Assembly: GCA_028697715.1 (NCBI GenBank)
Contig: JAQVDS010000003.1
Location: 62,001-126,000, forward strand
DNA: 64,000 nt
From: Acidithiobacillus sp.
Lineage (GTDB): Bacteria > Pseudomonadota > Gammaproteobacteria > Acidithiobacillales > Acidithiobacillaceae
Reading direction: 5' to 3'
Shown: in pieces, positions 40,269 to 49,092 of the stretch
Layout: every line of letters starts with the position of its first letter
How positions within the stretch are numbered: the first letter of the stretch is position 1
Notes under the pieces: model-generated
Told to the model about the DNA's origin: nothing
The model's database searches: none
What the model saw: the letters and a program-made list of their open reading frames with translations, nothing else
Translations under genes and position numbers: made by a program

Positions 40269-41687
40269 ATGGCTGGTAAATATGAAGCCGGCGTGAAGGA
40301 GTACCGCCAGACGTACTGGGCTCCTGACTACGTGCCGTTGGACTCGGATTTGTTGGCGTGCTTCAAGATCGTGCCGCAGCCGGGCGTGGATCGGGAAGAA
40401 GCGGCTGCGGCGGTTGCGGCAGAATCTTCTACCGGTACCTGGACCACGGTGTGGACCGACTTGCTCACCGATATGGACTACTACAAGGGCCGTGCCTATC
40501 GGATCGAAGACGTGCCTGGCGACGACACGGCATTCTACGCCTTCATTGCCTACCCCATCGATCTCTTCGAGGAAGGTTCGGTCGTCAATGTATTCACTTC
40601 CTTGGTAGGTAACGTGTTTGGCTTCAAGGCCGTGCGCTCTCTGCGTCTGGAAGATGTCCGTTTCCCTTTGGCTTACGTGATGACCTGTAACGGTCCCTCC
40701 CACGGCATTCAGGTAGAGCGCGACAAGCTCGACAAGTATGGGCGTCCGATGCTTGGCTGTACCATCAAGCCCAAGCTGGGTCTGTCGGCCAAGAACTATG
40801 GCCGTGCGGTGTACGAAGCCCTGCGTGGCGGCCTCGACTTCACCAAGGATGACGAGAACGTCAACTCTCAGCCCTTCATGCGCTGGCGTGACCGCTTCCT
40901 CTTCGTTGCCGACGCCATCCACAACGCCGAAGCGCAAACGGGTGAACGCAAGGGCCACTATCTGAACGTTACCGCCCCTTCACCGGAAGAGATGTATGAG
41001 CGTGCCGAGTTCGCCAAAGAGCTAGGCATGCCGATCATCATGCATGACTTCCTGACCGGCGGCTTCTGCGCCAACACGGGTCTGGCCCGTTGGTGCCGGA
41101 AGAATGGTGTGCTGCTGCACATCCATCGCGCCATGCACGCCGTGATCGACCGTAACCCGCATCATGGTATCCATTTCCGGGTCTTGACCAAGGCCCTGCG
41201 TCTGTCGGGTGGTGATCACCTGCACACCGGTACCGTGGTCGGTAAATTGGAAGGCGACCGTGCCTCTACCCTTGGCTGGATCGACCTCTTGCGCGAATCC
41301 TATGTCCCCGAAGACCGCAGCCGCGGTATCTTCTTCGACCAGGATTGGGGCGCGATGCCCGGCGCTTTTGCAGTGGCCTCTGGCGGTATTCACGTTTGGC
41401 ATATGCCTGCCTTGGTCAACATCTTCGGTGATGACTCGGTGTTGCAGTTCGGTGGTGGTACCTTGGGGCACCCCTGGGGTAACGCCGCCGGCGCAGCCGC
41501 CAACCGGGTAGCGTTGGAAGCCTGTGTCGAGGCGCGCAATCGCGGTGTCGAGCTGGAGCGCGAAGGTAAGGAAATCCTGACCAACGCCGCCCGCCACTCA
41601 CCGGAGCTGAAAATCGCTCTGGAGACCTGGAAGGAAATCAAATTCGAGTTCGATACCGTCGACAAGCTCGACGTACAGAACCGTTGA
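40269..41687 (+). CDS. cbbL: Rubisco large subunit, form IA
   Basis: 472 aa RbcL. Active-site features: [15 protein letters not shown] (catalytic Lys), [16 protein letters not shown] (carbamylated Lys, Asp, Glu), HRAMHAV, and the loop-6 segment [12 protein letters not shown]. Placement with carboxysome genes and the small subunit supports form IA. A strong AGGAGGG site is 6 nt upstream. Fixes CO2 inside the carboxysome. Confidence 0.98.
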
Positions 41688-41726
41688 TTTTCTGGCTAAT
41701 GCATTTGCTTCAGGAAGGAGTCCATC

Positions 41727-42056
41727 ATGGCTGAAGTTCAAGATTACAAGCAGGTACGGCGTTACGAGACCTTCTCGTATCTCCCGCCAATGTCGGCGGA
41801 ACAGATCCGCGCGCAGGTGCAGTACATCATCGCCCAGGGCTGGAACCCGGCGGTGGAACACGTGGAGCCGGAACGTTCCTTCAACCACTATTGGTACATG
41901 TGGAAGCTGCCCATGTTTGGTGAGCGGAACGTTGATACCGTTCTTGCCGAGCTCGAGGCTTGCCGCCGCGAGTACCCCAAGCATCTCGTTCGTTTGATCG
42001 GCTACGACAACTATACCCAGAGTCAGGGTCTGGCCTTCGTAGTGTATCGCGGCTAG
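41727..42056 (+). CDS. cbbS: Rubisco small subunit
   Basis: 109 aa RbcS ([33 protein letters not shown], then [10 protein letters not shown] and RLIGYDN). Caps the CbbL octamer; in alpha-carboxysomes the CbbL-CbbS interface binds the N-terminal repeats of CsoS2. AGGAAGGAG site upstream, 39 nt after cbbL. Confidence 0.98.
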
Positions 42057-42076
42057 TAAGCCGAACAGATCGATCA

Positions 42077-42106
42077 TTGGCACCTGGCAAGCATGCCGGG
42101 TGCCAA
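42077..42106 (+). terminator. Strong stem-loop between cbbS and csoS2
   Basis: TTGGCACC (42077-42084) pairs with GGTGCCAA (42099-42106), continued by a G-U pair and four more pairs around the loop AGCA: 13 pairs in total. No T-run follows. It most likely lowers read-through or protects the cbbLS end of the mRNA, giving more Rubisco than shell protein. Confidence 0.65.
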
Positions 42107-42120
42107 GTTAAGGGGGACGT

Positions 42121-44583
42121 ATGTCGGATTCATCAGCATCCGGTCCAATGCGGGGCCGGGCTTTGGCGCAGGAGAAGCGGCGCCAGCAGGCAATGCGTAG
42201 GCAGGGTGGCGGCGCGGCCAAGCCGGTCGTTGCGCCTTCCGCGCCAAAGTCTGGGAACAATCAGGAAACGCGGGTCGCTCCCGCTCTTGAGGTCCATTCC
42301 GAGAAGATGGCGATTCGTGGCAGCGGGCGTGAGGCAGCCTTGGCCCATCGCGCCATGCGCTGCGCTGGGGCTCAATGCTGGGCCGATCCGCAGCAGCGCC
42401 AAGTGCGTCATCGCGGTCAAAGACCCGCAGCAGTAACTCCGACGGTAACGCCAGCAGTCAGCGAAGAGGCAGCACCCGCTTTGATTCCCGGAGTAGAGGA
42501 GGAATTCCTGGATTCCGTCTGTGAACTCGTCGAGCAAAGCCCCGAAAGCTTTGGTTGGCGTGAACGCCCGGTGCGGCAACTCTGTCGCGCACGGCGGCAG
42601 ACCCTGGCGCAGCGGGGCAAGGCCGCACTCACCGTTGTACGCGGTCTGAGTTCCGCGGCCGCTCGTTTGCGTTACCTGGAAAATGGCAGTGCGCGGGAGT
42701 TCGCCAAATTGCGGCGCGAGGAACAGGCGCAGCGGGGACGCGGGTTTGCCAAGGGTGGCGCTGATGCCGCCGGTAAACGACGTGCAAAGAAGTTTCGCAA
42801 GGTCGAGGAAGGCACGACCTTGGCTGGCTCTATGGTTACCGGTACGCAAGTGGAGCGCAGCGACGCGGTTACCGGCAATGAGATGGGCACTTGTCGGCCC
42901 ATCACGGGAACCGAATATATTGGTGCTGAGCAATTTGATCAGTTCTGTGGCGAGCGTCCTGCGGCCAGTCCAGCCAAGGTAACGGTGACCAGTACCTCCG
43001 GTCGGCAACAGGTCTCTGGTACCCAGGTCGGACGCTCCGCATCGGTCACCGGTGACGAGTCCGGCGCATGTCGCAATGTGACTGGCTCGGAATACCTCAG
43101 CAGTGAAAGCTTCCAGAGCTTCTGCAATGCCAAGCTCCCAGAGCGTCCAGCAAAGGTGATCACGGGCAGCACGCAAAAGAATGCGCTCCCTGTAACGGGC
43201 AGTGATGAATCGCGTGCCAATCGTGTGACTGGCTTTGAGGCCGGGGCGCAGCGGAGCATTACGGGTTCCCAATACTGGGATGCGGGCGTCGCCAAGATGA
43301 CCATCAATGGTGCTCCGCGTAAGGTGGCGGAAACGCATACCTTTGCCGGTCGCACGGTGTCTGGAACAGCGGTAGATGGCAGTCAGCGCATTACCGGTCT
43401 GGAGCCGGGTGCGTGTCGGCAGCTGACGGGTACCGAGTACTTGAGTCTGGAAAACTACCAGACCCTGTGTAACACCAAGCCGTCGCCGTCGCCGGCCAAA
43501 GTTGGGACGGTTGCGACGGACAAGGGGCAGCGGGTCACTGGTAATCTCGTGGATCGCTCCGAGAAGGTTACAGGCAACGAGCCGGGCTCTTGTCAGCGGG
43601 TCACGGGTACCGGTTACAACAGCCCTATTCTGTGCGGGGGTGGTGTTGATAAAGTCCAGAGCATGACCAGTCTCGCTGGATCGACCATTACCGGGACGGG
43701 GATGGATCATCGCCCAAAAATGACAGGTGACGAGCAGGGAGGGTGCTGGCCCGTCACCGGAACCGAATATCATGGGCAAGAGCAATTTGCCCACTGCGCG
43801 AGCACCCCGCAGGCGGAAGCAGCAAAGGTTGCCGTCAGTCGTACGGCAAAAGGTCAGTGGGTTAGCGGACCCGCTATGGAGCCGGCAGAGAATGTCACCG
43901 GCAACGAAGCGGGTGAGGATCTGGCGGTTTCCGGCACGCCCTACCAAGGTGAGGAAATGGGTACCGTGGCCACGGCACCGGCTGGCACTTGTGCTTGTGA
44001 TGGCTGTTCCTACAAGCAGAAGGCTATGGCGTGGGATGCCATGCAAGGCGGCACGGCCGGCAGTCAACGCTTTGTGCCCGCACCAGCCGCATCAGCGCCG
44101 GTCGCTAGCACGCCTGTACCCGCTCAGGACTTCAGTATTGTCCCTCCTGCCCGGCAGGGGCGCAGCCGAATCACTGGTAACGCGTTTGAGCAGAGCGGTC
44201 GCATCACGGGACCGGTCAATCTGGCGCGCGGCCTGATTACCGGTACTCCAGAGTTTCGCAGTCGTGAGCCGCAATCGGACAGCGCCCTGCCGCCGGCAGC
44301 GGAGATGCTAGCAGCGCCTGAGGCCGCCGCACCAGAACGGGGTGCGTGGCAGATCACCGGCGATGACTGGAGCCGTAACGCTCGGGTTACCGGTACTGAA
44401 GGAGCCTGGGCGCAGGGACGCAATCCTACCCAGCGCGGCGCGGTTCGCAGCTGCGTGATGAGTGCCGGGGTCAACCGCAATCAGGCTCTGGCTGCACCGC
44501 TGAGCGATTCCAAGGTTACTGGCAGTAGTGGCAGCGCCCGCAAAGGCGCGGCAGTCACCTACTCTGGTGGCGCAAGGGGATAA
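42121..44583 (+). CDS. csoS2: Carboxysome scaffold protein CsoS2
   Basis: 820 aa intrinsically disordered scaffold linking Rubisco and shell. N-region (1-235) has up to four basic helices, e.g. CRARRQTLAQRGKAAL and AKLRREEQAQRGRG, that bind Rubisco. Middle region (about 239-645) has seven M-repeats with VTG/ITG triplets and Cys, e.g. VTGTQVERSDAVTG...CRPITGTEY; the third repeat has lost its cysteines, as I recall also for Halothiobacillus. The C-terminal region has three ITG/VTG blocks and ends AAVTYSGGARG, the shell-encapsulated peptide. AGGGGG lies upstream of ATG. A -1 frameshift signal lies at codons 531-533. Confidence 0.97.
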   Translation: MSDSSASGPMRGRALAQEKRRQQAMRRQGGGAAKPVVAPSAPKSGNNQETRVAPALEVHSEKMAIRGSGREAALAHRAMRCAGAQCWADPQQRQVRHRGQRPAAVTPTVTPAVSEEAAPALIPGVEEEFLDSVCELVEQSPESFGWRERPVRQLCRARRQTLAQRGKAALTVVRGLSSAAARLRYLENGSAREFAKLRREEQAQRGRGFAKGGADAAGKRRAKKFRKVEEGTTLAGSMVTGTQVERSDAVTGNEMGTCRPITGTEYIGAEQFDQFCGERPAASPAKVTVTSTSGRQQVSGTQVGRSASVTGDESGACRNVTGSEYLSSESFQSFCNAKLPERPAKVITGSTQKNALPVTGSDESRANRVTGFEAGAQRSITGSQYWDAGVAKMTINGAPRKVAETHTFAGRTVSGTAVDGSQRITGLEPGACRQLTGTEYLSLENYQTLCNTKPSPSPAKVGTVATDKGQRVTGNLVDRSEKVTGNEPGSCQRVTGTGYNSPILCGGGVDKVQSMTSLAGSTITGTGMDHRPKMTGDEQGGCWPVTGTEYHGQEQFAHCASTPQAEAAKVAVSRTAKGQWVSGPAMEPAENVTGNEAGEDLAVSGTPYQGEEMGTVATAPAGTCACDGCSYKQKAMAWDAMQGGTAGSQRFVPAPAASAPVASTPVPAQDFSIVPPARQGRSRITGNAFEQSGRITGPVNLARGLITGTPEFRSREPQSDSALPPAAEMLAAPEAAAPERGAWQITGDDWSRNARVTGTEGAWAQGRNPTQRGAVRSCVMSAGVNRNQALAAPLSDSKVTGSSGSARKGAAVTYSGGARG
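43713..43758 (+). other. Programmed -1 ribosomal frameshift signal in csoS2
   Basis: Slippery heptamer CCCAAAA (43713-43719) in the correct phase C CCA AAA, 6-nt spacer, then stem GGTGACG (43726-43732) with CGTCACC (43752-43758) enclosing an inner AGCA/TGCT helix. The -1 frame reads Asn-Asp-Arg-stop (TGA 43728-43730), so the short form would be about 536 aa against 820 aa. CsoS2A/CsoS2B formed this way are known from Halothiobacillus neapolitanus. Confidence 0.8.
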
Positions 44584-44592
44584 GGCGCAGGT

Positions 44593-46149
44593 ATGGATAC
44601 GCGAAGAAAAATGCGGCACCTACGCCAGAGTGCTTCGTCTTCGGCGCCAGCGATGTCGATGGCACAACGCTACTCTTCGCAGGGGCAAGCGCCTCTTGCC
44701 GCAAATGGTATAGCAGCTGAGCATCCCGCCTGCACCGCACTGCCTCACCGCTCCTGTCGTCATCCGTTGACGAATGTGGTGGAGAATGTTCGGCTCGGTC
44801 ACTGTGAGGACGGCGTCAAAGGTCGCTTTGATGCGATCCTGCCCGTATTGCAGGAAGTGGCCGCCCGCGGGCTGGGTAGTGGGTACGCGGAAAATGCACA
44901 ACGCTTGGCTCAGGAGCGTCTGGGCTTTTCCTTCCCGGAAAATCTGCTCGAAAACGCCTGGGTCCGGGGTTTTGATATGCGTTCCCTCTTTGCCAGCGCC
45001 ACGTTTGCTGCACTGGAACTGGGTGTGGCGCGTTTTTCTCAGCGTCTGCGCGAGGAATTGCAGGCCGGTGAGAATGTCGATGCGATGTTGGTGGACTGTG
45101 GTTTTCACGCCATGAACCTTTCGCTCTGCGCCGACGGTCGTCTGAAGGGTTTTTTGCCCTATGTGCTGCGTATGCCAGCGGGACACCTGCTGCGTCGCAG
45201 TGCTTTCGCGGGCACGCTTTTCGATGTGGAAAGGGATGTCGAGGACTGGCAGGCGACCGAATTGCGCCGGTATCGCGAAGGGTTCCCGACTACGGCAGAT
45301 GTGCCGACCCGCTACCTGAAGGTTGCGGTGTATCATGGTAGCTCCCTCGATCCGACGCACGAGGGGTGTGCAGCGCATGGCAGCAATGAGAGCTTGGCGC
45401 TGGAAATGGCGATGCAGCGGCTGCAGGCGTTCCGTGAAGCCATCGAAAACGAGTTCTGTTGCGGTGCCAGCACCGACATTTTACTGATTGGGTTGGATAC
45501 GGATACCGATGCCATTCGTATCCATGTGCCGGATGCCAAGGGCAACCTGAGCGCCTATCGCTACGTCGATAACGCACAAGTGTATCGGCAAACGCTGGAG
45601 ATGGATGCCGACCGCGCCCGTCTCGCCGTCTACGAGGCGATTCGTGTCGCGGCTGAGTCATCAGGCTGGGGACAGGGGGAAGGCATGCCCCATGACGGTA
45701 TGCGTCGCCTCATTGCCACTTTGTTGATCAATAATCTGAGCCAGATCGAATACGTGGCGGATCGGGTGGGTGGGTGGTACCCAGATGCTGGGCATGACGA
45801 GCGTTTTATTAGTGTGGGTGATGGTTTTCAGGAATTGCAGATGCGCAATGTCGCCTATTACGCCCGTCTCGATACAGTAGAAGAGGGCGCTGCGGATCTT
45901 GATGTAGGCATCAAGATCTTCAAGCATCTCAATGTCGAACGGCAGTTGCCGATTCCCATGGCGCTGCACTATCGCTATGACTCGCGCGTTCCCGGGAATC
46001 GTGAACGAGTAGTGAGCAAGTTGCAGCGGGTGGCAGATGCAATCCGTCAGCGCTACGCGCAGCTCGATCGTGATGGCTGGCTGTATCTGCATGGCAGCGT
46101 TCAGGATCTGCCTTTGGGAAGCGCGTTGGAGGAGGTGGATTTGGCATGA
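44593..46149 (+). CDS. csoSCA: Carboxysomal carbonic anhydrase CsoSCA
   Basis: 518 aa epsilon/CsoSCA-type beta-carbonic anhydrase (CsoS3). An N-terminal disordered tail (Ser/Ala-rich, about 50 aa) probably binds Rubisco; the zinc ligands are expected in VDCGFHAMNLSLC and VYHGSSLDPTHEGCAAHGS. It converts bicarbonate to CO2 inside the shell. Starts 9 nt after csoS2; its stop overlaps csoS4A (ATGA). Confidence 0.96.
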   Translation: MDTRRKMRHLRQSASSSAPAMSMAQRYSSQGQAPLAANGIAAEHPACTALPHRSCRHPLTNVVENVRLGHCEDGVKGRFDAILPVLQEVAARGLGSGYAENAQRLAQERLGFSFPENLLENAWVRGFDMRSLFASATFAALELGVARFSQRLREELQAGENVDAMLVDCGFHAMNLSLCADGRLKGFLPYVLRMPAGHLLRRSAFAGTLFDVERDVEDWQATELRRYREGFPTTADVPTRYLKVAVYHGSSLDPTHEGCAAHGSNESLALEMAMQRLQAFREAIENEFCCGASTDILLIGLDTDTDAIRIHVPDAKGNLSAYRYVDNAQVYRQTLEMDADRARLAVYEAIRVAAESSGWGQGEGMPHDGMRRLIATLLINNLSQIEYVADRVGGWYPDAGHDERFISVGDGFQELQMRNVAYYARLDTVEEGAADLDVGIKIFKHLNVERQLPIPMALHYRYDSRVPGNRERVVSKLQRVADAIRQRYAQLDRDGWLYLHGSVQDLPLGSALEEVDLA

Positions 46150-46397
46150 GAATCATGCGGGTGGAAAAGACACTGGTCTCTACCAATCGCATCGCCGAGA
46201 TGGGGCATCGTCCTTTGCTCGTGGTGCAGGAAAAGGAAGGTGGTACGCGTTCGGTCGCGGTCGACGCGGTCGGCTGTATCCCTGGTGACTGGGTCATCTG
46301 CGTCGGTTCCTCGGCAGCACGGGAGGCCGCTGGATCCAAGGATTACCCATCGGACCTCACAATTATCGGTATCATCGACAACTGGACGCCGGCCTGA
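46146..46397 (+). CDS. csoS4A: Carboxysome vertex protein CsoS4A
   Basis: 83 aa BMC-P pentamer (EutN/CcmL fold): MRIMRVEKTLVSTNRI, VAVDAVGCIPGDWVICVGSSAAREA, IIGIIDNW. Caps the vertices of the icosahedral shell. ATG overlaps the csoSCA stop. Confidence 0.96.
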   Translation: MRIMRVEKTLVSTNRIAEMGHRPLLVVQEKEGGTRSVAVDAVGCIPGDWVICVGSSAAREAAGSKDYPSDLTIIGIIDNWTPA

Positions 46398-46398
46398 G

Positions 46399-46644
46399 AT
46401 GGAAATCATGTGCGTTCAGTCCGATCTGGTTACGACACGCCGAATTCCCGGCTTGAAGCAGGCATCGTTACGGATATTGCGTGATAGTAACGGGAAGATG
46501 GTGGTGGCAACGGATCCGGTCGGTGTCCCCAAGGGCAAGTGGGTGTTTACCGTGTCCGGTTCGGCAGCGCGCTATGCGCAGGGTGATTTCGAGGTCCTCA
46601 CTGACCTTACCATTGGTGGCATCATCGATTTTTGGGAACCCTGA
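46399..46644 (+). CDS. csoS4B: Carboxysome vertex protein CsoS4B
   Basis: 81 aa second BMC-P pentamer paralogue: MEIMCVQSDLVTTRRIPGLK, ATDPVGVPKGKWVFTVSGSAARYA, IGGIIDFWEP. ATG 46399 lies 1 nt after the csoS4A stop. The frame is open further upstream (to 46240), but that part overlaps csoS4A in another frame and is not coding. Confidence 0.95.
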   Translation: MEIMCVQSDLVTTRRIPGLKQASLRILRDSNGKMVVATDPVGVPKGKWVFTVSGSAARYAQGDFEVLTDLTIGGIIDFWEP

Positions 46645-46659
46645 CGGGTTCGGGTTTTT
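46636..46659 (+). terminator. Terminator-like hairpin at the csoS4B end
   Basis: GAACCC (46636-46641) and GGGTTC (46646-46651) form a 6-bp stem with loop TGAC that contains the csoS4B stop, followed by GGGTTTTT. It is a short, probably leaky intrinsic terminator before the shell genes csoS1CAB; alternatively a processing point. Confidence 0.45.
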
Positions 46660-46680
46660 CTCTGTAAGGAGGGGTGAATA

Positions 46681-46977
46681 ATGGCAGATGTAACAGGTAT
46701 TGCTCTCGGAATGATCGAAACTCGTGGCTTGGTGCCGGCAATTGAAGCGGCCGATGCCATGACCAAGGCAGCAGAAGTGCGCTTGATCGGACGTCAGTTC
46801 GTTGGTGGCGGCTATGTGACGGTCCTGGTGCGTGGCGAGACCGGTGCCGTGAACGCTGCGGTTCGCGCTGGCGCCGATGCCTGCGAGCGCGTCGGCGACG
46901 GTCTGGTGGCCGCACACATCATCGCGCGCGTGCATTCGGAAGTGGAAAACATCCTGCCCAAGGCTCCAACCGCGTAA
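46681..46977 (+). CDS. csoS1C: Carboxysome shell hexamer CsoS1C
   Basis: 98 aa BMC-H hexamer ([20 protein letters not shown]), making the shell facets, with a pore loop in [13 protein letters not shown]. Differs from CsoS1A only near the C-terminus (KAPTA against KVPTV). AAGGAGGGG lies about 6 nt before ATG. Confidence 0.97.
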   Translation: MADVTGIALGMIETRGLVPAIEAADAMTKAAEVRLIGRQFVGGGYVTVLVRGETGAVNAAVRAGADACERVGDGLVAAHIIARVHSEVENILPKAPTA

Positions 46978-47033
46978 AGCGGCTAGGTCGGTCAGGTTCC
47001 CAAAGATTTTTTGATTTTTGTTAGGAGATTACA

Positions 47034-47330
47034 ATGGCAGATGTAACAGGTATTGCTCTCGGAATGATCGAAACGCGTGGTTTGGTGCCGGCTATCGAGG
47101 CGGCTGATGCCATGACTAAAGCCGCTGAGGTGCGCCTGATCGGTCGTCAGTTTGTTGGCGGTGGCTATGTGACGGTGCTGGTGCGTGGTGAAACTGGTGC
47201 GGTCAATGCGGCTGTGCGTGCCGGCGCCGACGCTTGCGAGCGGGTGGGCGATGGCTTGGTGGCTGCCCACATCATTGCCCGTGTGCACTCTGAGGTGGAA
47301 AACATCCTACCCAAGGTGCCGACCGTCTAA
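47034..47330 (+). CDS. csoS1A: Carboxysome shell hexamer CsoS1A
   Basis: 98 aa BMC-H hexamer nearly identical to CsoS1C. The first 41 nt of the two genes are the same, while later codons differ synonymously. TTAGGAGAT site 7 nt upstream. 56 nt separate it from csoS1C. Confidence 0.97.
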   Translation: MADVTGIALGMIETRGLVPAIEAADAMTKAAEVRLIGRQFVGGGYVTVLVRGETGAVNAAVRAGADACERVGDGLVAAHIIARVHSEVENILPKVPTV

Positions 47331-47346
47331 TCTAGTTCGTGGATGT

Positions 47347-47374
47347 GACACGGCGGGCTGTCGCTCGTCGTGTC
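47347..47374 (+). other. Stem-loop between csoS1A and csoS1B
   Basis: GACACGGCG (47347-47355) pairs with CGTCGTGTC (47366-47374), 9 bp with one G-U, loop of 10 nt, 17 nt after the csoS1A stop. No T-run. Could stabilise the csoS1A mRNA 3' end. Confidence 0.5.
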
Positions 47375-47405
47375 CCTCCTCCTAAACCCTAGAGGGAGAT
47401 AGAGC

Positions 47406-47744
47406 ATGGCAACAGTAACAGGCATTGCCTTGGGGATGATCGAGACGCGTGGTCTGGTGCCGGCTATCGAAGCGGCCGATGCCATGACCAAGGCCGCAGA
47501 GGTTCGTCTGGTCGGTCGTCAATTCGTTGGTGGTGGTTATGTCACGGTCTTGGTACGTGGCGAGACCGGTGCGGTGAACGCTGCGGTTCGGGCTGGCGCC
47601 GATGCCTGCGAACGGGTTGGCGATGGCTTGGTCGCAGCGCACATCATCGCGCGTGTCCACTCGGAAGTGGAGAACATTCTACCGACGACGCCTACTGCAG
47701 ACGGTAGTGGCCGCGATGGCGACGTCAGTGCGGTGCAAAGCTAA
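47406..47744 (+). CDS. csoS1B: Carboxysome shell hexamer CsoS1B
   Basis: 112 aa BMC-H hexamer, close to CsoS1C/A but with MATVTG start, RLVGRQF and a C-terminal extension ([16 protein letters not shown]) of about 12-14 aa, typical for CsoS1B as the minor facet component. AGAGGGAGATAG upstream. Confidence 0.97.
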
Positions 47745-47756
47745 GTAGAGGCGTTC

Positions 47757-48203
47757 GTGTTGCGACCGCATCCCCGTATCGCCGGTTTTCTCGGGCGAGC
47801 GCTCAGTCATGAGTTTCTGGCAGTGCAGCAGTACCTCGTGCAGTCCCGTCTGTGTCGACTCTGGGGCTGGCAGGACTGGGCCGAGAGCTTCGCCCGGGAA
47901 TCTCGGGAGGAGTTGGAGCACGCGGGCCTGCTTAGCGATCAGCTGTTGCGCATGGGCATTGCGCCCAGTGCCGGCACCTTGCGGCCGTCGCGGCCGGGCA
48001 GGGATCTGCGGGAGATGCTCGAACAGGACGTGGCGATCGAGTGGTCGGCAGTAGAGCTTTACGCCGAGGCCCTCGATTTCAGTCAGCGAATGCGCGATGC
48101 ACCCACTGCTTCGCTGTTCGCGCAGTTGCTGGAAGACGAAAAGGGGCATCTAATGCATCTGCAGGAAACCATCAGCTCTCTCGGGACCCATCATGGGCAC
48201 TGA
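47757..48203 (+). CDS. Bacterioferritin-like protein of the carboxysome operon
   Basis: 148 aa four-helix ferritin-like protein with HEFLAVQQYL, EELEHAGLL, EWSAVELYAEAL and EDEKGHLMHL, providing Glu/His ferroxidase-type ligands. Such a gene is regular in cso operons; its role in the carboxysome is unclear (iron storage or redox). GTG start with GAGG upstream; the 3' end overlaps acRAF by 11 nt. Confidence 0.88.
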   Translation: MLRPHPRIAGFLGRALSHEFLAVQQYLVQSRLCRLWGWQDWAESFARESREELEHAGLLSDQLLRMGIAPSAGTLRPSRPGRDLREMLEQDVAIEWSAVELYAEALDFSQRMRDAPTASLFAQLLEDEKGHLMHLQETISSLGTHHGH

Positions 48204-48468
48204 GACCTCCGCCGGTTGTCCCGATGGCTGGGAGGAGCGCGGCAAGCCGCTGTCCTGGACTCGACGTTTCAGTTTCCCGGATTATGCGGCTACCCGCAGC
48301 TTTCTGGATCGGCTAACGGAACTGTCCGAAGAGTTCGACTACTATCCAAACCTGAATTTTGCGCGCGATTATGTCGTGGTTGCCGTGCAATTTGATGGTG
48401 ATCAGATTGACGCCCGGCTCGCGGGATATGCGCATGCCGCACAAGCGGCATACGCTGCGGCGGAATAG
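48193..48468 (+). CDS. Alpha-carboxysome Rubisco assembly factor acRAF (PCD-like)
   Basis: 91 aa protein of pterin-4a-carbinolamine dehydratase fold. The catalytic His-His-Pro of true dehydratases is replaced by YYP (EEFDYYPNLNFARDYVVVAV), indicating loss of the enzyme function and a chaperone role, as known for acRAF in cso operons. Overlaps the previous gene by 11 nt and ends 3 nt before mcdA. Confidence 0.88.
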   Translation: MGTETSAGCPDGWEERGKPLSWTRRFSFPDYAATRSFLDRLTELSEEFDYYPNLNFARDYVVVAVQFDGDQIDARLAGYAHAAQAAYAAAE

Positions 48469-48471
48469 GGT

Positions 48472-49092
48472 ATGGCGACGTTGCGTATCGCTCTGTTCAA
48501 CGCCAAGGGCGGTTGCGGTAAGACGACCCTGGCGTGGAACCTGGCATCCGGGCTTGCGCAGCGCGCTAGTACCTTGCTGTTGGACGCAGACCCCCAAGGG
48601 AGTCTCCAACGTTGGGCAGATTGGAGCGAAGAAGATGGCAATGGTATGACGGTTGCCGGTCGGGAGGCGCTGAAAAGCTCGGGAATCGGTTCAGCACAGT
48701 ACTGTGTCATCGATTGTCCTCCTGCCTTGGAGGCAGTGGAAACGCGAAAGGCTCTGGATCTTGCTGACGTCGTGCTGCTACCGGTCCTCCCTTCGCCTCT
48801 CGACCTTTGGGCGAGTCAGCGCAGTGTCGAAGCCATTGAAGAAATTCGAAAGAAGAATCCGAAGCTGCGCGCGGCACTTGTGCTGAATCAGGTCGAGGGG
48901 CGGAGCGCGCTGTCGCGGGCGGCCGAACATGCCATAGTAACTTTGGGATTGCCGGTTTTTCGCGGGCAGATCGCGAGAAGAGCGATCTATCGCAACGCTG
49001 CAGTCGAGGGCAAAAGCGTTTACCAGATGGGGAAACGAGCTGATGCTGCGGTTGCGGAAATTGAGGTACTGATCGAGGAGGTTCTCAAATGA
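48472..49092 (+). CDS. mcdA: ParA-type carboxysome positioning ATPase McdA
   Basis: 206 aa ParA/MinD ATPase with deviant Walker A KGGCGKTT at residues about 12-19 and switch DADPQGS. It coats the nucleoid and, with McdB, spaces carboxysomes. Immediately after acRAF; overlaps mcdB by 4 nt. This is the alpha-type McdA found in cso operons. Confidence 0.92.
   Translation: MATLRIALFNAKGGCGKTTLAWNLASGLAQRASTLLLDADPQGSLQRWADWSEEDGNGMTVAGREALKSSGIGSAQYCVIDCPPALEAVETRKALDLADVVLLPVLPSPLDLWASQRSVEAIEEIRKKNPKLRAALVLNQVEGRSALSRAAEHAIVTLGLPVFRGQIARRAIYRNAAVEGKSVYQMGKRADAAVAEIEVLIEEVLK

Follow-up and report, generated by a model that had tools for sequence, protein, structure and literature searches.

A probable programmed -1 ribosomal frameshift signal in csoS2 of an Acidithiobacillus carboxysome operon

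The known csoS2 frameshift and the Acidithiobacillus locus

The carboxysome gene csoS2 of Halothiobacillus neapolitanus carries a programmed -1 frameshift (Chaijarasphong et al. 2016, as reported in PMC5009743, PMC12918739, PMC11365436 and PMC11481516), which lies in M-repeat 6 (PMC11365436, PMC11481516). The short form produced in this way, CsoS2A, has a published length of 570 residues, three of which come from the -1 frame, and the shift occurs with an efficiency of about 50%; among 162 csoS2-bearing species, 79 were predicted to shift (PMC5009743). CsoS2A is recruited via its M-region, and its presence goes with larger shells (PMC11481516), while CsoS2A by itself forms no carboxysomes (PMC11365436). 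A more distant parallel is the -1 frameshift of Escherichia coli dnaX, which likewise combines an in-phase slippery heptamer with a 3' stem and lets one mRNA give a second, truncated product (PMC5009743). However, dnaX is an unrelated gene, and the csoS2 site has no conserved upstream Shine-Dalgarno-like element: in 25 related csoS2 genes, the codons upstream of the heptamer are under little synonymous constraint, save for the third base of codon -1.

The window considered here is a stretch of 64,000 nucleotides from Acidithiobacillus sp. (assembly GCA_028697715.1, contig JAQVDS010000003.1, positions 62,001 to 126,000), and its features are listed in Table 1. The window csoS2 lies within an operon of the alpha-carboxysome type, where it is adjoined by cbbLS, csoSCA and BMC genes; the pterin-dehydratase-like match in the same operon is below the family cut-off. 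The protein aligns with H. neapolitanus CsoS2B (PDB 9ly8/8b12) with an E-value of about 1e-174 and contains seven M-repeats, and the closest named genomes by CsoS2 identity are Acidithiobacillus sp. YTS05 (96%) and Candidatus Igneacidithiobacillus taiwanensis (76%).

Table 1. Coordinates of the csoS2 frameshift cassette and its surroundings in the window
Feature	Positions	Strand	Basis
csoS2, full-length CsoS2B-like product of 820 aa (zero frame)	42121..44583	+	ORF; Pfam CsoS2_M PF12288, E=2.7e-130; H. neapolitanus CsoS2B alignment
Carboxysome operon: cbbL, cbbS, csoS2, csoSCA, csoS4-type pentamer gene, csoS1-type BMC genes	40269..49092	+	Pfam matches
Same operon, further members: ferritin-like, pterin-dehydratase-like and ParA-like genes	40269..49092	+	Pfam matches
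M-repeat 6 of seven (residues 511-559), slip site inside	43651..43797	+	Repeat listing
Slippery heptamer C_CCA_AAA, in phase with csoS2, codons P532-K533	43713..43719	+	Sequence; homologous codons in relatives
-1 frame extension Asn-Asp-Arg-stop (AAT GAC AGG TGA)	43719..43730	+	Translation
Spacer, 6 nt	43720..43725	+	Sequence
3' stimulatory stem-loop	43726..43758	+	Outer pairs in 25/25 sequences; synonymous-constraint peak ends at stem end

The elements of a frameshift cassette, as originally predicted, can be read directly from the window. The codons CGC CCA AAA ATG (43711-43722) place an X_XXY_YYZ heptamer in the zero frame as C_CCA_AAA, and the -1 frame, after Asn-Asp-Arg, runs into a TGA that would end a C-terminally truncated CsoS2A-like product of 536 residues with the C-terminus PKNDR. 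The spacer is followed by a 7-bp outer stem, in which GGTGACG (43726-43732) pairs with CGTCACC (43752-43758), and RNAfold draws the same outer stem in a 50-nt segment (-16.2 kcal/mol). The inner helix that had also been proposed is weaker and stands only in part, as AGCA/TGCT (43733-43736/43744-43747) may pair but RNAfold draws the inner pairs differently. The placement of the site before the sixth M-repeat needs correction, as it lies inside this repeat, between the first and the second [VIM]TG.

The site occupies the place of the H. neapolitanus frameshift, as had been proposed, and does so to the exact codon. P566-K567 of the solved H. neapolitanus CsoS2B (PDB 8b12, 9ly8) aligns with P532-K533 of the window protein. 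Among the loci collected here, L121 has an M6 identical to that of the protein in PDB 8b12/9ly8 and, because its sequence matches the solved CsoS2B, was taken as H. neapolitanus csoS2. At P566-K567 it has CCCAAAG and PKDVR followed by a stop, along with the GGTGACG/CGTCACC stem of the window, and a slip at these codons predicts 567 + 3 = 570 residues, exactly the published length of CsoS2A. The two genes share the M-repeat, the homologous Pro-Lys codons, a C_CCA_AA[A/G] heptamer, the identical 7-bp outer stem, a -1 stop after three codons and a predicted short form without the C-terminal domain. They differ in the heptamer (CCCAAAA in the window, CCCAAAG in H. neapolitanus), the -1 extension (NDR and DVR), the length of the outer stem (7 and 9 bp) and the predicted fold (-16.2 and -23.4 kcal/mol). 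The stem of the window is predicted to be less stable because an A at 43725 breaks a two-pair outer extension present in most relatives. When these extension pairs are counted, the stem of most relatives gains up to 2 bp and their spacer shrinks in effect to 4 nt. On this comparison, the site is orthologous to the characterised one in H. neapolitanus, for which the mechanism is already known.

Conservation of the cassette at the nucleotide level

Taken by itself, the signal in the window sequence is only moderately unlikely to arise by chance and is suggestive. Given the encoded amino acids and the codon usage of the gene, the heptamer would arise with a probability of about 0.02, and the 50-nt segment is equalled or surpassed in fold stability by 23% of synonymous recodings. 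Read at the sequence level, the comparative evidence from relatives is decisive. The csoS2 loci were gathered by PF12288 searches across the family, order, class and phylum as well as two further families, with the phylum-wide sample contributing only one additional csoS2-bearing genome. In all 25 related genes, CCCAAA[A/G] is found in phase at the homologous Pro-Lys codons, and the -1 stop follows after exactly three codons at all 25 distinct sites, the -1 TGA arising each time from a GGT codon that is invariant. All seven pairs of the outer stem form in each of the 25 sequences.

A codon alignment of the 25 genes locates the strongest synonymous-site conservation of csoS2 from the heptamer to the end of the stem. 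The alignment windows in which synonymous codons are shared most in excess of expectation all lie over the frameshift site. In the best 13-codon window, 0.86 of pairs share the codon versus 0.38 expected, which is 5.6 SD above the mean window of the gene (mean excess 0.08, SD 0.07), and conservation is back to background at the first codon past the stem. In particular, CCA, GGT, GTC and TGC are shared by all 25 genes, with almost the same constancy for GAG (all 23 Glu codons), CCC (all 21 Pro codons) and ACC (24/25). The third-position GC of these genes spans 0.51 to 0.87, and therefore a shared base composition does not explain the conservation of codons. Several families are represented, but as the genes share ancestry they are not independent samples, and an overall p-value is therefore omitted. 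One cassette-bearing csoS2 from a fragmented assembly (L151/L152) has an in-frame TAA about 29 codons past the heptamer, which is either an assembly error or the mark of a broken gene.

These patterns bear on the possibility that the site arose by chance, with a Pro-Lys before the TGDE repeat motif happening to yield a heptamer and repeated VTG-type codons happening to pair. Judged on this gene alone, such an origin would be compatible with the heptamer probability and with the ordinary fold given above, and the nearby TGA comes from GGT-GAC, which encodes the Gly-Asp of the repeat itself. However, synonymous codons are frozen only at this site across genes of several families, the heptamer is kept by a whole clade, and another csoS2 lineage encodes similar amino acids in the homologous repeat with different codons (for instance CCC AAG GTC ACC GGG GAT). 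A chance origin was rejected on the basis of synonymous-site conservation and the gene tree, and we consider it very improbable.

The stem is so nearly invariant that covariation is almost absent among the 25 sequences and, for this reason, uninformative as proof of the stem. The inner hairpin can adopt two alternative pairings, each mostly kept across relatives. Within it (43733-43751), the nucleotides GGGTGC are nearly invariant yet mostly unpaired in predicted folds, and this region is possibly a further structural element. Since the upper hairpin, including GGG TGC, is almost frozen, the comparison suggests that the stimulator may be more than a plain stem, which agrees with the greater complexity ascribed to the csoS2 stem-loop in comparison with dnaX (PMC5009743).

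The same near-invariance of GGG TGC, beyond the needs of a simple stem, would also fit an RNA element that is conserved for a different purpose, for example a pause, translational control or mRNA processing. This explanation appears just as improbable as chance, since the conserved unit starts exactly at the in-phase X_XXY_YYZ heptamer and retains the -1 stop, frameshifting has been demonstrated at the H. neapolitanus ortholog, and an Rfam search of the region gave no family match. Transcriptional rather than ribosomal slippage is less probable still: the A after the heptamer creates AAAAA at 43716-43720, but a run of five A is short for polymerase slippage, H. neapolitanus shifts with only AAAG, and the downstream stem is conserved.

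Predicted origin of two CsoS2 forms

The cassette is thus most readily understood as a programmed -1 ribosomal frameshift signal giving CsoS2A-like and CsoS2B-like forms, a reading that we hold to be highly likely. As ribosomes decode the CCA AAA of M-repeat 6, a stable stem of the mRNA would stand at their entry channel, and a fraction of them would slip one base back on C_CCA_AAA, with the P- and A-site tRNAs re-pairing with CCC AAA. The slipped ribosomes would add Asn-Asp-Arg and stop at the TGA, so that the resulting CsoS2A-like protein would keep the Rubisco-binding N-terminus and most M-repeats, and would lack what follows in M6, the whole of M7 and the shell-anchoring C-terminal domain. 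Ribosomes that do not slip would produce the CsoS2B-like protein of full length. We infer from sequence that slippage occurs in this organism and that two CsoS2 forms are made, as well as the efficiency of the shift and the role of the short form. In this way, evidence of selection at the nucleotide level would bring acidophilic chemolithoautotrophs within the range of the demonstrated frameshift, and annotations of these csoS2 genes should list two products.

Lineages with and without the site

The distribution of the site was evaluated on a tree of 90 CsoS2 proteins, which was built first and labelled for the heptamer afterwards. The label falls on one supported clade, in which it is carried by 23/23 members, and on a pair of loci elsewhere in the tree, requiring a minimum of 2 changes versus 22.1 in shuffles. 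Circularity, in the sense that relatives were picked for having the heptamer, was rejected on the same grounds, as the whole supported clade carries it in a tree labelled after construction. Loss of the heptamer or stem in close relatives was looked for, and the site is kept in all seven csoS2-bearing genomes of the genus.

Acidithiobacillaceae, the family of the window, has two distinct csoS2 lineages, one with the frameshift cassette (L011-L024) and one without (L003-L010). Among its 23 csoS2-bearing genomes, 15 have the site and 8 have the other lineage. The latter encodes a CsoS2 of about 773 aa with homologous M-repeats, but its homologous repeat has no CCCAAA[A/G] and it forms a separate supported branch. 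Both lineages are present within a single genus (g2), with 6 cassette-bearing and 7 cassette-free members. In the Halothiobacillus family, the csoS2-like frames of four genomes (L115-L118) measure about 625 aa and lack the heptamer.

What keeps the predicted two-form arrangement is a gene lineage, not the family as a whole. The original proposal of a conserved function for the two forms has to be qualified on two counts: some Acidithiobacillaceae use the lineage that has no such site, and H. neapolitanus can form carboxysomes without the short form (PMC11365436). Because a lineage with an almost frozen cassette coexists in the family with one that would make a single form, and the cassette of the window appears to be a weakened variant, the CsoS2A:CsoS2B ratio may be adjusted, or done without, from one close relative to another. 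We put this forward tentatively, as somewhat less than an even prospect; if true, nature would have supplied an experiment on the purpose of the short form. The presence of both shifting and non-shifting csoS2 in one family also offers a way to test what CsoS2A contributes to carboxysome size and to the loading of Rubisco.

The pair outside the main clade (L074 and L078) has CCCAAAA within a TGDE repeat, together with a three-codon -1 extension (NDG/NDR) and a stem, and this site represents either a second origin or the relic of an older one.
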